From: Methanosphaera sp.
Lineage (GTDB): Archaea > Methanobacteriota > Methanobacteria > Methanobacteriales > Methanobacteriaceae
Direction of reading: 5' to 3'
Assembly (NCBI GenBank): GCA_017431845.1
Contig: JAFRKG010000005.1
Location: 1-32,320, forward strand
DNA: 32,320 nt
The notes beneath the pieces were generated by a model. That model did not search any database. It saw only the letters and a program-made list of their open reading frames with translations, and had not been told where the DNA came from. The position numbers and the translations under genes are program-made. Position 1 is the first letter of the stretch. Every line of letters starts with the position of its first letter. Of the stretch, positions 1 through 16,620 are shown piece by piece.

Positions 1-169
1 ACAAAAAACAGTCAAACAAAAACACAAAAAACAGTCAAACAAAAACAGAAAAAACAGTCAAACAAAAACACAAAAAACAGTCAAACAAAAACACAAAAAA
101 CAGTCAAATATAAATACGTAAAACAGTCAAATATAAATACGAAAAACAGTCAAATAAATAAAAAAATAT
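1..169. repeat. 23-bp tandem repeat array, at least seven units
   Basis: The core CAGTCAAA begins at positions 9, 32, 55, 78, 101, 124 and 147, an exact 23-bp period with no spacers. Positions 1-8 match the tail of a further unit, so the array continues past the left edge. Units 1-4 (9-100) are almost identical, with one C-to-G change in unit 2. Units 5 and 6 (101-146) share a diverged second half that includes TATAAATACG, and unit 7 decays into plain AT-rich sequence. The array ends about 10 bp before the ATPase start. Its function is unknown; iteron-like protein binding sites or a simple expanded minisatellite are both possible. Confidence 0.92.
132..139 (+). promoter_or_regulatory. Putative TATA box inside repeat unit 6
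   Basis: TATAAATA in unit 6 lies about 45 bp upstream of the ATPase ATG. This would place transcription start near 160 and leave a leader of about 20 nt. The same motif occurs in unit 5 (109-116). Units 1-4 have CAAAAACA in the same place and lack it. Which copy is used cannot be told from the sequence. Confidence 0.4.
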
Positions 170-179
170 AGATGATTAC

Positions 180-1472
180 ATGAAAAAATATTTAAAACGA
201 TTAATTGAACAGGATTTAAAAGATTATTTAGAAATTATAGGAGCTGTTCTATTAGTTGGACCAAAATGGTGTGGTAAAACAACAACTGCAGAACAATATG
301 CTAATAGTGTATTAAAATTACAAGATCCTGATAATAGAAAATCCTATTTACAATTAGCGGAAATTAAACCATCCAAATTATTAGAAGGTGAAAAACCAAG
401 ATTAATAGACGAATGGCAGTTAGCACCAGTTCTATGGGATGCTGTACGAATTAGTGTAGATAATGCTGATTCTAAAAATTTATACATAATGACCGGATCA
501 ACAACAGTAAATGAAAAAGAAATAAAGCATTCAGGAACTGGGCGAATACATCGTTTATTAATGTATCCTATGAGTTTATACGAAAGTGGGGATTCAAATG
601 GTAAAATTTCATTACAAAAATTATTTGAAGATGAAAAATTAGATATCAATGGCATAGAATCATTTCTTACTTTAGAAGACTTATTACATGTAGCTTGTCG
701 TGGAGGATGGCCAGAAACGCTAAATATAAAAGATAAAAACAAACAGTTAAAAATTGCAACATCATATGTTGACCATATATGTCAAACAGATGTATCGGAA
801 ATAGATAATGTAAAGAGAGATCCGGATAAAATTAAATTACTACTGCAATCTTATGCTAGGAATATCTCAACCCTTGCAAAAAATACTAATATTCTTAAAG
901 ATGTTAATTCAACATATACTACCCTTGATAAAAGCACTTTCTATTCCTATATTGCTGTACTGAAAAATATATATGTTATAGATGATATAAAGGGATGGTC
1001 ACCAAATATTCGTTCTAAAAATGCTATACGAAAAGGCCCTAAAAGACAATTTATAGACCCTTCAATAGCAACGGCAGTTCTTGATTTAACACCACAAAAA
1101 TTAATTTATGATTTAAATACTTTCGGATTTATATTTGAAAATCTATGTATACGTGATTTAAAAATTTATTCACAATCATTAGGTGGAAAAATATATTATT
1201 ATCATGACAACACAGATTTAGAAGTAGATTGTGTAATACAATTAAAAAATGGAAATTATGGATTAATTGAATTTAAATTAGGTGGTAAAGAGGAAGAAAA
1301 AGGAGCTAAAAATCTTTTAAAAATAGATAAATTGATTAAAGAAAAAATAAAAAGCAAGGATGATGTAGATATACCTGAACCATCCTTTTTAGCAATTATA
1401 ACTGGGGGCAAATTCGCTTATACAAGAGATGATGGTATAAAAGTAATTCCAATAGGGTGTTTAAGAAATTAA
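180..1472 (+). CDS. AAA-family ATPase with C-terminal DUF4143 domain
   Basis: This is a cytosolic P-loop ATPase of the AAA_14/DUF4143 type, a family common in many copies in archaea and bacteria whose cellular role is not settled. Walker A is GPKWCGKTT (residues 27-35), the Walker B-like segment is RLIDEWQ (74-80), and a sensor-like YIMTGST follows at 102-108. The C-terminal part carries an EVD...GLIEFKLG pattern resembling the PD-(D/E)XK nuclease fold reported for DUF4143. The 430 aa length is normal for the family. The ATG is preceded only by a weak GATGAT, so ribosome binding is poorly defined. The gene stands alone on the plus strand, directly downstream of the 23-bp array and convergent with ferritin. 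It could be part of a toxin-antitoxin or element-borne cargo, but nothing else here supports that. Confidence 0.88.
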   Translation: MKKYLKRLIEQDLKDYLEIIGAVLLVGPKWCGKTTTAEQYANSVLKLQDPDNRKSYLQLAEIKPSKLLEGEKPRLIDEWQLAPVLWDAVRISVDNADSKNLYIMTGSTTVNEKEIKHSGTGRIHRLLMYPMSLYESGDSNGKISLQKLFEDEKLDINGIESFLTLEDLLHVACRGGWPETLNIKDKNKQLKIATSYVDHICQTDVSEIDNVKRDPDKIKLLLQSYARNISTLAKNTNILKDVNSTYTTLDKSTFYSYIAVLKNIYVIDDIKGWSPNIRSKNAIRKGPKRQFIDPSIATAVLDLTPQKLIYDLNTFGFIFENLCIRDLKIYSQSLGGKIYYYHDNTDLEVDCVIQLKNGNYGLIEFKLGGKEEEKGAKNLLKIDKLIKEKIKSKDDVDIPEPSFLAIITGGKFAYTRDDGIKVIPIGCLRN

Positions 1473-7724: not shown

Positions 7725-8522
7725 TTATTTGGTCTCCTGCATTATAATATAAAATGCATTGGTTGCAAAGAATAATAGGAATGCTTCAAGAAAAGCTGAA
7801 ATAAGCACATCTCTTATCAGAAAGTCTAATAACCATACTAAATTAAATGATAATACCAATATTAAAGACATGATCCCTACGAATTTCAAATATCTTTTAT
7901 AACCTATCCTATAAATGTACCCGTTTATTACTCGAAAATCTAATGATTTAAATAAATTACCTGACATGTTTAAATTTATTTTTCCAATAAATGAAAATGA
8001 TAAGAAGAAAACAAAAATTATTATGCTTATCAATGCATTTAATTGAATACTATGTGTTAAATCTATCTGTAATGATACTGGTAATTCAGCGGATAATTCA
8101 CGTAAAGTAAAAATTGTAGTGTCAATATCCATACGGATTATGTACTCATGTATATGTAATAGATTAGAATAAACACCTGTTGGTACAATGAAAAATGATG
8201 AAAGTAGTGCCGTTAAAAACATGTAATATAATGTTATGATATATTCTCTTAGTCCTTCGATAAAATTTTCTAAAAAATCATAATAATCAACAGAACTGTT
8301 ATCTACTACACTGTTTGTTAAACTTATCATTAATCCAAAAATTATTAAGGTAACTACGGAATTTAATATGAACAGTAAAATTGTCCATTGTCCTATATGA
8401 ACTTTATTGAATAATTCTGTTATTACTTCACATAATAATGCTAAAAGGAATACTAATATGAAATGTTTATATTCTTTGAATGGTAGTAGAAATGATTCTT
8501 TTACAATATGCCTTATCCTCAT
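7725..8522 (-). CDS. DUF4013-type membrane protein
   Basis: This is an integral membrane protein of 265 aa with about six hydrophobic segments (roughly residues 20-40, 48-70, 96-115, 160-185, 213-235 and 240-258). Overall layout and context resemble DUF4013 proteins, a family frequent in methanogens with no known function. It differs from the second copy at 17641 in lacking the long hydrophilic tail and C-terminal zinc ribbon. The start lies 6 bp after the NudC1 stop, and an AGGTAGGT inside the end of nudC1 serves as ribosome binding site, so the two are co-transcribed. The family call is by eye and less certain than for the second copy. Confidence 0.65.
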   Translation of the reverse strand: MRIRHIVKESFLLPFKEYKHFILVFLLALLCEVITELFNKVHIGQWTILLFILNSVVTLIIFGLMISLTNSVVDNSSVDYYDFLENFIEGLREYIITLYYMFLTALLSSFFIVPTGVYSNLLHIHEYIIRMDIDTTIFTLRELSAELPVSLQIDLTHSIQLNALISIIIFVFFLSFSFIGKINLNMSGNLFKSLDFRVINGYIYRIGYKRYLKFVGIMSLILVLSFNLVWLLDFLIRDVLISAFLEAFLLFFATNAFYIIMQETK

Positions 8523-8528
8523 AAAATC

Positions 8529-9338
8529 TTAACCTACCTTATTACAAAAGTCTTCAATTAATAATGAGTATATGCTAATATCATTATCAACTTTTTCTAT
8601 TTCTTCCTTTTTAAACCATTTTGCCGTTAATATCTCATCACCATCTACCTTAATTTCACCGGATTCATAATCTGCCTTGTATGCGCACATTAATGAATTT
8701 GGAAATGGCCATGGTTGACTTCCCATATACTGTATGTTACATATATTTATTCCTACTTCTTCTTTAACTTCTCTTTGAACTGCTTCTTCTATTGTTTCAC
8801 CCATCTCAACAAATCCTGCTATCAGTGCATAGTTTACTGTTGTATTATAAGTGTGACGTGCCATGAGCAGCTTATCATCTTTATGTATTGCTATGATTAC
8901 TGCTGGTTGAATTATTCCGTGCACGACTTTTCCGCATCTGGGACATTTAAATGCCATGCTGCCCTTTTTAATTTTGTTTTTTGAACCGCATCGTCCACAG
9001 TACCTGTTATCCTTGTACCAGTCATTTATTAGTACTGCTCTTGTTGCAATTTGATAAATTTCCTTGTCGATTAAATATAAATCTCGTAAATCTATGTAAT
9101 CTTCGTTATCTGTTACATTTACGACAAAACATTCTTTTCCCCTGTATTTTCCAATGTATAATTTGAAATTTACATTGAAATTGTTTAAAAAAGAATCTTT
9201 TTCTAGGGGAATCTGATAATTCTCTGATAAGTATATTTTACGTTCTTGATTAATGATGTAATAATATGCATCATCCTCTGTATTGTATTTCTCATTAAAT
9301 TCTATTTCATAATCAGAGTATAAGTATTTATCAATCAT
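8529..9338 (-). CDS. nudC: NudC-type NAD(H) pyrophosphatase, copy 1
   Basis: This Nudix hydrolase is of the NADH pyrophosphatase group, which splits NAD(H) into NMN(H) and AMP and in bacteria also removes NAD caps from RNA. The zinc ribbon has Cys114, 117, 132 and 135. The Nudix box runs from Gly175 through RE (189-190) and EE (193-194). SQPWPFPNS (207-215) is the diagnostic NudC signature. I start at the ATG at 9338, because it aligns exactly with the start of copy 2 (16627-17439); the frame stays open to a TTG at 9383. No clear ribosome binding site precedes either. After the ribbon this copy has VVHGII where the family usually has HYPR or similar. It heads an operon with the DUF4013 gene. 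Confidence 0.9.
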   Translation of the reverse strand: MIDKYLYSDYEIEFNEKYNTEDDAYYYIINQERKIYLSENYQIPLEKDSFLNNFNVNFKLYIGKYRGKECFVVNVTDNEDYIDLRDLYLIDKEIYQIATRAVLINDWYKDNRYCGRCGSKNKIKKGSMAFKCPRCGKVVHGIIQPAVIIAIHKDDKLLMARHTYNTTVNYALIAGFVEMGETIEEAVQREVKEEVGINICNIQYMGSQPWPFPNSLMCAYKADYESGEIKVDGDEILTAKWFKKEEIEKVDNDISIYSLLIEDFCNKVG

Positions 9339-16078: not shown

Positions 16079-16114
16079 AAAAAAGTTGAATAATAGTTAT
16101 CTTATTAGATAACT
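16079..16114 (-). terminator. Hairpin plus U-tract after the Ser/Gly-rich gene
   Basis: On the minus strand, AGTTATCT (16114-16107) and AGATAACT (16102-16095) form an 8-bp stem with a 4-nt loop that begins on the stop codon. A U7 tract follows about 10 nt later (16085-16079). Confidence 0.5.
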
Positions 16115-16620
16115 TAGTTAATGGAATAATCTCCATCTGGTGCACTTATTGCTGGACTTGAAGCACTGGAACTTCCGGAACTACTTGAACCACTAGAACT
16201 GCCAGATCCACTAGAACCACTACTTGAACTACCAGAACTACTTGAACCACTTGAACTACCGGAACTACTTGATCCACTAGAAGAACTTGATCCTGAGTGA
16301 CTTGAAGATGATGAACTACTTGAACCACTACTTGAACTTCTAGATGAACTACTTGATGATGGTGTGGTACTTGGTGTAGAGCTTCCAGTTATACCATTGG
16401 ATACTTGTTGTAATGTATCTTTAACTGGTGATGTTAATTTATCAAGTAAACTTCCGTTTGTATTGTTTTCAGGAGTAGTATTATTATTTACATCTAATGT
16501 AACATTACCTGAATCTGTTAGATTACTAAAGTCTATGTATGATGCAGCTACTGCTACCAGTGTGCCTATTAGGGCAATTGCAACTATTGCAATTACCATT
16601 AATTTTACTCGTTCTCGCAT
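16114..16620 (-). CDS. Membrane-anchored Ser/Gly-rich surface protein
   Basis: This is a 168 aa protein of no recognised family. After MRERVK comes one hydrophobic segment (7-28) that could be a signal anchor. Residues 30-57 then hold several N-glycosylation sequons (N33LT, N39VT, NNTT at 46-49, N52NT, N55GS). A predicted short helical linker follows to about 75, then a low-complexity Ser/Gly tract from about 86 to 158, and a short PAISAPDGDYSIN tail. Topology suggests the Ser/Gly part lies outside the cell, as a stalk or wall-spanning spacer. The start lies 6 bp after NudC2; the GGGTGAT ribosome binding site contains the nudC2 stop codon, so the pair is translationally coupled. The repetitive DNA is prone to length change. 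Confidence 0.75.
   Translation of the reverse strand: MRERVKLMVIAIVAIALIGTLVAVAASYIDFSNLTDSGNVTLDVNNNTTPENNTNGSLLDKLTSPVKDTLQQVSNGITGSSTPSTTPSSSSSSRSSSSGSSSSSSSSHSGSSSSSGSSSSGSSSGSSSSGSSSSGSSGSGSSSGSSSSGSSSASSPAISAPDGDYSIN
16160..16370. repeat. Degenerate Ser/Gly codon repeat
   Basis: Within the surface-protein gene, short units reading on the plus strand as CTTGAACCACTAGAACTACC-like blocks recur with variable phase, encoding SSSG and SSG blocks. This is imperfect tandem repetition of 9-15 nt units. Confidence 0.7.

Follow-up and report, generated by a model that had tools for sequence, protein, structure and literature searches.

The window, by which we mean the whole 32,320-nucleotide stretch of a Methanosphaera sp. 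genome analyzed here, opens with a 23-bp tandem array (1..158, plus strand), followed on the same strand by a gene for a 430-aa AAA_14-DUF4143 ATPase-nuclease (180..1472). Seven cores (CAGTCAAA) start at window positions 9, 32, 55, 78, 101, 124, and 147, an exact 23-bp step, and the inner unit reads CAGTCAAACAAAAACACAAAAAA. Tandem Repeats Finder, run on the window, places the array at 1–158 with a period of 23, 6.9 copies, 93% matches, and 0% indels. Its end at 158 lies 21 bp before the ATPase gene, which begins with an ATG at 180. An initial annotation of this DNA, made from the letters alone, had described seven spacer-less cores directly before an ATPase gene, and both parts of that description are borne out. 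Regular direct repeats beside a defense candidate recall CRISPR, but the units in the window abut head to tail at period 23 with no spacers, and a CRISPR array was rejected. Low-complexity chance was likewise rejected as an explanation of the array. Elsewhere in the window (16114–16620, minus strand), a 168-aa ORF runs across tandem repeats of 9, 27, and 39 bp.

A second contig of the same genome, C120, terminates in the same array, sharing 112 bp with window positions 1–112 at one mismatch; the break in the draft assembly thus falls in the array. To the left of the shared part, C120 carries a single degenerate unit (CAGTTTCAGCATAAACAC) and then a divergent gene. If nothing was collapsed, the window's contig (C22) and C120 combined hold seven cores and one degenerate unit. 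The leftward extension proposed at the outset thus yields one more, degenerate, unit, and the claim that the array continues off the left edge is right to that extent and no further. The complete genome G156, from the same species, has eight cores at the equivalent place, compared with seven in the window. Inner units end in CACAAAAAA in the window, and all of them end in CACGAAAAA in G156; the arrays have therefore been homogenized separately in two members of one species, in keeping with the original reading of the near-identical units. Within the window's genome, the unit has no other occurrence when up to three mismatches are tolerated. In two gene-proximal units, a TATA-box-like word (TATAAATA, 109–116 and 132–139, plus strand) takes the place of the inner units' CAAAAACA, making these units a candidate archaeal core promoter. 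Across archaeal arrays, such words occur in 5 of 40 last units, 4 of 40 penultimate units, and 3 of 121 inner units, which is a weak gene-proximal enrichment.

The adjoining gene product has Pfam matches to AAA_14 (1.3e-14) and DUF4143 (8.7e-34) and to no other domain. Most of the protein (residues 1–390) matches PDLC04790, a PADLOC model of the single-gene phage-defense candidate PDC-S01, at 1.7e-60. The initial annotation recognized no known system, a statement that this match refines. Profile searches of NCBIfam and PHROGs gave no useful name, and a sequence search of solved structures found nothing convincing (best E 0.086). Across 119 sequences, conserved residues 27–34 (GPKWCGKT, 258..281, plus strand; G27, K29, G32, and K33 invariant) and 75–78 (LIDE, 402..413, plus strand; D77 and E78 invariant) are what we take to be Walker A and Walker B. 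All three residues of D350 ... E364-x-K366 (1227..1277, plus strand) are also invariant in this set, and we assign them to a PD-(D/E)XK-type nuclease motif. That assignment agrees with passages of PMC12988326 that describe S01 as an ATPase fused to a PD-(D/E)XK domain, so the window's gene is like PDC-S01 both in its HMM match and in the fusion. The pairing of ATPase and PD-(D/E)XK nuclease is seen here in the invariant residues, the Pfam matches, and a high-confidence structure model.

That model was built from the 119 sequences (pLDDT 93.7, pTM 0.93) and was used in place of one from 14 sequences that had a poor AAA domain (mean pLDDT 72). It contains a winged-helix-like region at residues 205–285 (792..1034, plus strand), with helices at 215–227, 235–245, and 251–263 and a strand at 270–272; this region is a candidate DNA reader, given the model and a modest co-variation with the repeat unit. 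The closest folds are two STAND-like archaeal ATPases, PABY2304 (2qen; Z 14.3, 258 aligned, rmsd 4.3) and SSO1545 (2fna; Z 12.8, 260 aligned, rmsd 4.9), and NB-ARC and CED-4 proteins come next. Foldseek also returned ORC/Cdc6 and CARF-nuclease chains at low TM-scores. Because of these neighbors, we read the modeled protein as STAND-like: an AAA+ module that carries a winged helix and is joined to a PD-(D/E)XK domain. To our knowledge, PABY2304 and SSO1545 have no known function. In NLR/CED-4 proteins, the winged helix serves protein contacts, and the fold alone therefore does not guarantee DNA reading.

The locus differs among close relatives. The G156 copy of the ATPase has a broken frame near codon 356 and is separated from a ferritin gene by an insert; this insert of about 850 bp (L216, about 8120–8970) has copies of the ferritin 3' end on its flanks, and by eye its ORFs resemble a nucleotidyltransferase/HEPN pair. 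The related genome G007 keeps both neighbors with a cysK-like gene between them and lacks both the ATPase and the array at this place; its homologue, 77% identical, is found on a separate contig and carries a different unit. Only ATPase remnants are left beside ferritin in G006, G012, and G015. Given the cysK-like gene in G007 and the decayed remnants in the other three, we found no clean empty site for the locus among these genomes. Defense genes are readily gained, broken, and lost, and the broken, absent, and decayed copies among these relatives show that the same holds for this gene. Two of the genomes with a decayed ATPase, the close relatives G006 and G015, have a different 23-bp array (unit TTATCATTATAAAAAACAATAAC; L277 844–917 and L278 1396–1443) 58 bp upstream of ferritin.

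Looking upstream of the gene's homologues, we found a match in 16 of 41 related genomes, where most intact copies with enough upstream sequence have a period-23 array of their own and the unit varies from copy to copy. We extended the sample to 80 genome loci, the best 80 of a longer list, and six viral contigs, which widened the range to Bacteroidota, Clostridia, Treponema, and an Acholeplasmataceae bacterium. In a first test on these best 80 loci, the best upstream period was 23 in 63 and 46 in 4. Shuffled sequences gave no array in 397 of 400 cases and none at period 23, and control windows from the same loci gave no array in 849 of 881 and period 23 in two; in both of these, the array is a second copy of the unit belonging to the gene itself, a short way downstream. 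When all loci with at least 90 nt upstream were pooled (archaea, Bacteroidota, Clostridia, Spirochaetes, and viral contigs), 112 of 123 had a period-23 upstream array at a score of at least 15, compared with 0 of 1230 dinucleotide shuffles; we note that these rows are related sequences and not independent events. The remaining 11 loci, such as L081, L099, and L130, fall below the threshold. The initial annotation had envisaged that no copy of the array might be associated with any gene class, and the pooled result is the opposite.

These arrays span 1.7 to 10.7 units (median 3.6). Mobile elements carry them as well: the best upstream period is 23 on the Bacteroides uniformis plasmid pBUN1, two Collinsella plasmids, and a faecal phage contig, with the second Collinsella plasmid under threshold at a period-23 score of only 13.5. 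Neither of two unit-pair patterns of Bacteroidota type has an exact match in the viral contigs. Seeded from randomly chosen units with both strands allowed, the orientation of the array relative to the gene was the same in 107 of 112 cases, and 106 of 112 arrays have a positive A/T skew, meaning an A-rich coding strand. With the register seeded by a bacterial consensus, units share a loose framework, CAAAA-n6-AAA-Y-AAA-n5, with variable positions between, and the window's units fit it too.

Such arrays are scarce away from the gene. In 40 pieces of 20 kb (800 kb) of G156, 16 tandem arrays score at least 25, six of them outside long ORFs, and the sole period-23 array (L326 8164–8267) lies directly upstream of a frame-broken clade homologue, the only one of the five clade copies in G156 that this sample covers. 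In eight bacterial genomes, a Bacteroidota-type motif pair at 23-bp spacing matches 23 times, and 22 of these matches are at DUF4143 genes by position. The other, L345 (G044:C13), comprises two Bacteroidota-type 23-bp units before a toxin-antitoxin-like pair (HigB/HigA-like by eye) with no ATPase nearby. Another array without its gene is L358 5899–6097 (G090:C1), an orphan of 8.6 units at 23 bp with the clade's AAAGTAAA framework; the 12 kb read there hold no clade gene, and a DUF4143 gene from the 33-bp clade described below lies 270 bp downstream of the array.

The initial annotation had left open whether the array was a binding platform or a neutral minisatellite, that is, functionless slippage beside a gene. 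Homogenized units and a copy number of seven or eight within one species are what slippage would produce, but it would hardly give one period at 112 of 123 homologous loci over two domains of life, a shared orientation (107 of 112), a shared promoter phase (see below), and rarity of period-23 arrays elsewhere in the genome. The minisatellite option is contradicted by these data, and we regard it as barely credible; the same recurrence, together with the promoter phasing, favors a binding platform.

Array period follows the protein clade. Among 70 more distant DUF4143 ATPases, 35 have upstream direct repeats at 32–34 bp within the last 200 nt, compared with none at 27–29 or 37–39 bp, three at 22–24 bp, and 0 of 700 shuffles; the other half have no repeat at threshold. 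Conversely, a period of 32–34 was found in one of 123 loci of the 23-bp clade. On a FastTree phylogeny of 115 rows (45 from the 23-bp clade, namely every third locus plus eight named ones, and the 70 others, with arrays of this second set credited only within 120 nt of the start), a single change separates the 23-bp and 32–34-bp states. Three of the distant ATPases were checked, and all match PDC-S01 models. By eye, some 33-bp units look palindromic, whereas the 23-bp units do not. The PF01637 ATPases of the window's genome are alike in that some have upstream arrays, of period 28 (4.5 units; L266, G000:C17) and 45 (L264, G000:C146). This feature is not general, as most of the 10 PF01637 loci scanned have no clear array.

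The sequence of the unit, in turn, follows the individual gene. Three clade paralogues in the window's genome encode proteins that are 53–57% identical and have units 30–74% alike, and the G156 orthologues of two of them are 97% and 90% identical in protein with units 96% alike. Over 112 loci, proteins of higher identity had more similar units (Mantel r 0.42, p 0.001). In 69 thinned loci, the winged-helix region (205–285) had a partial correlation with the unit of 0.21 once the remainder of the protein was accounted for, a value reached by 16 of 500 random column sets. The blocks with the highest co-variation were 241–260 (0.23) and 1–20 (0.21), with others ranging from -0.32 to 0.17, and the best single co-varying columns (344–345) are in the nuclease domain. 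The excess co-variation of the winged helix with the unit is therefore suggestive only.

Arrays are also placed in register with promoters. A TAnnTTTG word, which we take to be the Bacteroidota-type -7 box, follows the array in 38 of 63 non-archaeal loci at a median of 26 bp from the array end, and in 28 of these 38 it sits at unit phase 17 or 18, where about three would be expected (two of 23 phases). In a sigma-70 test on 18 other bacterial and viral loci, nine have a TTGACA-TATAAT-like pair with a score of at least 10 of 12, with the -35 box beginning 4–7 bp after the array. The -35 box was at unit phase 18–20 in all 11 loci picked from this test for a phase check. Sites at the promoter of the neighboring gene, as would be expected of an operator, are thus found in bacterial homologues through the -7 and -35 phase lock. 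Period is set by the protein clade, the word by the individual gene, and place and phase by the promoter. Since the register to the core promoter is kept across phyla while the sequence changes, the array is best read as a site bound by some factor that acts on transcription, and the phasing makes it very probable that it acts in transcription.

Promoter phasing leaves room for a reader other than the ATPase, such as a host regulator, a nucleoid protein, or RNA polymerase contacting an A-rich upstream element. Upstream elements sit at the upstream edge of sigma-70 promoters, which is where the arrays end, and the A-richness of the coding strand in 106 of 112 arrays would suit such an element. 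Against another factor, the period goes with the ATPase clade (23 versus 32–34) across archaea and several bacterial phyla, which have no obvious regulator in common; moreover, paralogues of one genome have different units, and G007 lacks array and gene alike at this locus. We consider an operator read by some other factor unlikely, though worth keeping in mind.

A further alternative is that the array is no operator but marks where a mobile cassette, composed of array and ATPase-nuclease, ends or recombines. The patchy distribution (16 of 41 genomes), the copies on plasmids and phage contigs, and the decayed copies are in line with mobility. In four loci, a second copy of the gene's own unit lies just past the stop codon (L106 4485–4569, L102 4306–4356, L105 4307–4330, and L133 4357–4384), which leaves direct repeats on both sides of the gene. 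However, 103 of 112 loci have no further unit copy in the surrounding DNA examined, an unsystematic look noticed no target-site duplication, and strict promoter phasing is not expected of a transposon end. On balance, a cassette boundary seems quite improbable. The gene-less arrays, the copies past the stop codon, and the 11 of 123 clade loci below threshold are exceptions that the operator reading does not account for.

The initial annotation also likened the array to iterons. Iteron-controlled rep genes and parC-type centromere arrays autoregulate their own operon, and the locus shares with them tandem direct repeats just upstream of the gene for the presumed binding protein, with autoregulation expected. 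It differs in that the window's clade has several paralogues per genome, each with a private unit, in that the period is fixed by the protein clade, and in that the gene encodes an AAA+-nuclease instead of Rep or ParR. The likeness therefore stands for the look of the locus, regular direct repeats beside a probable DNA-binding ATPase gene, and fails for function, because Pfam shows no replication initiator and the arrays are phased to promoters. An iteron-type origin was rejected, as the adjacent gene has only AAA_14 and DUF4143 in Pfam. More broadly, repeats serving as replication iterons or a partition centromere, with an ATPase acting on DNA replication or segregation, would fit both this look and the resemblance of AAA+ plus winged helix to ORC/Cdc6 at a low TM-score (2qby). 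Such a role is hard to reconcile with the lack of an initiator or partition domain in Pfam, up to 20 DUF4143 matches per genome, the decayed copies, and the promoter phasing, and we give it hardly any weight.

We favor the interpretation that the array is a multi-copy operator of the adjoining ATPase gene, probably bound by the encoded ATPase for autoregulation. Only the ATPase is shared by every locus, and for this reason we infer that the ATPase reads the array, which would serve it as an autoregulatory operator; binding of the array by its cognate ATPase is, taken alone, likely. Each 23-bp unit would be one binding site, with units stacked directly against the core promoter in a fixed register. 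The STAND-like AAA+ ATPase-nuclease would read its own unit through the winged-helix domain and so control transcription of its own gene. As a first guess, negative autoregulation would limit the amount of a nuclease that could be harmful until something triggers it; that the effect of binding is repression is a tentative proposal, to which we give slightly less than even weight.

The finding bears on a widespread group of genes. According to passages of PMC12988326, PDC-S01 ranks as the fourth most common defense system across prokaryotes, with 9986 archaeal and 29,494 bacterial instances, and experimental validation is pending for most PDCs. S01 is described as abundant in the rumen in part of PMC13356809, one AAA_14-DUF4143 gene is among changed transcripts in Thermus in a passage of PMC4406477, and COG1373 is listed among genes shared by transfer in an excerpt of PMC10782964. 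An antiviral role for PDC-S01 is reasonably likely, given its status as a PADLOC candidate. The array differs from the known system in that it is not part of the PADLOC profile, and the text of PMC12988326 consulted on PDC-S01 mentions no repeats, with "tandem" and "direct repeat" absent from it. We found no description of these arrays in the open-licence PMC literature searched.

The array provides a handle on this common defense candidate, being a cis-element whose period is specific to the clade, whose sequence is specific to the locus, and whose promoter phase is fixed. From it follow predictions of the ligand, of the domain that binds, of the stoichiometry over 23 or 33 bp, and of orthogonality among paralogues, and the natural pairs of protein and DNA word are a possible source for learning a winged-helix recognition code. 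A more far-reaching reading, which we offer as speculation and think unlikely as a whole, is that the array is more than an operator and forms a working part of the defense system, on which ATPase-nucleases would assemble at private DNA addresses and be held inactive. The proteins would form a regular filament or stack, with one protomer or dimer per 23 bp (32–34 bp in sister clades), and viral interference with the promoter or the assembly would free active nuclease. Rapid joint change of the array and the reading domain would insulate paralogues in one cell. If this were true, "array plus reader" would be the general design of one of the commonest defense candidates of archaea and bacteria.
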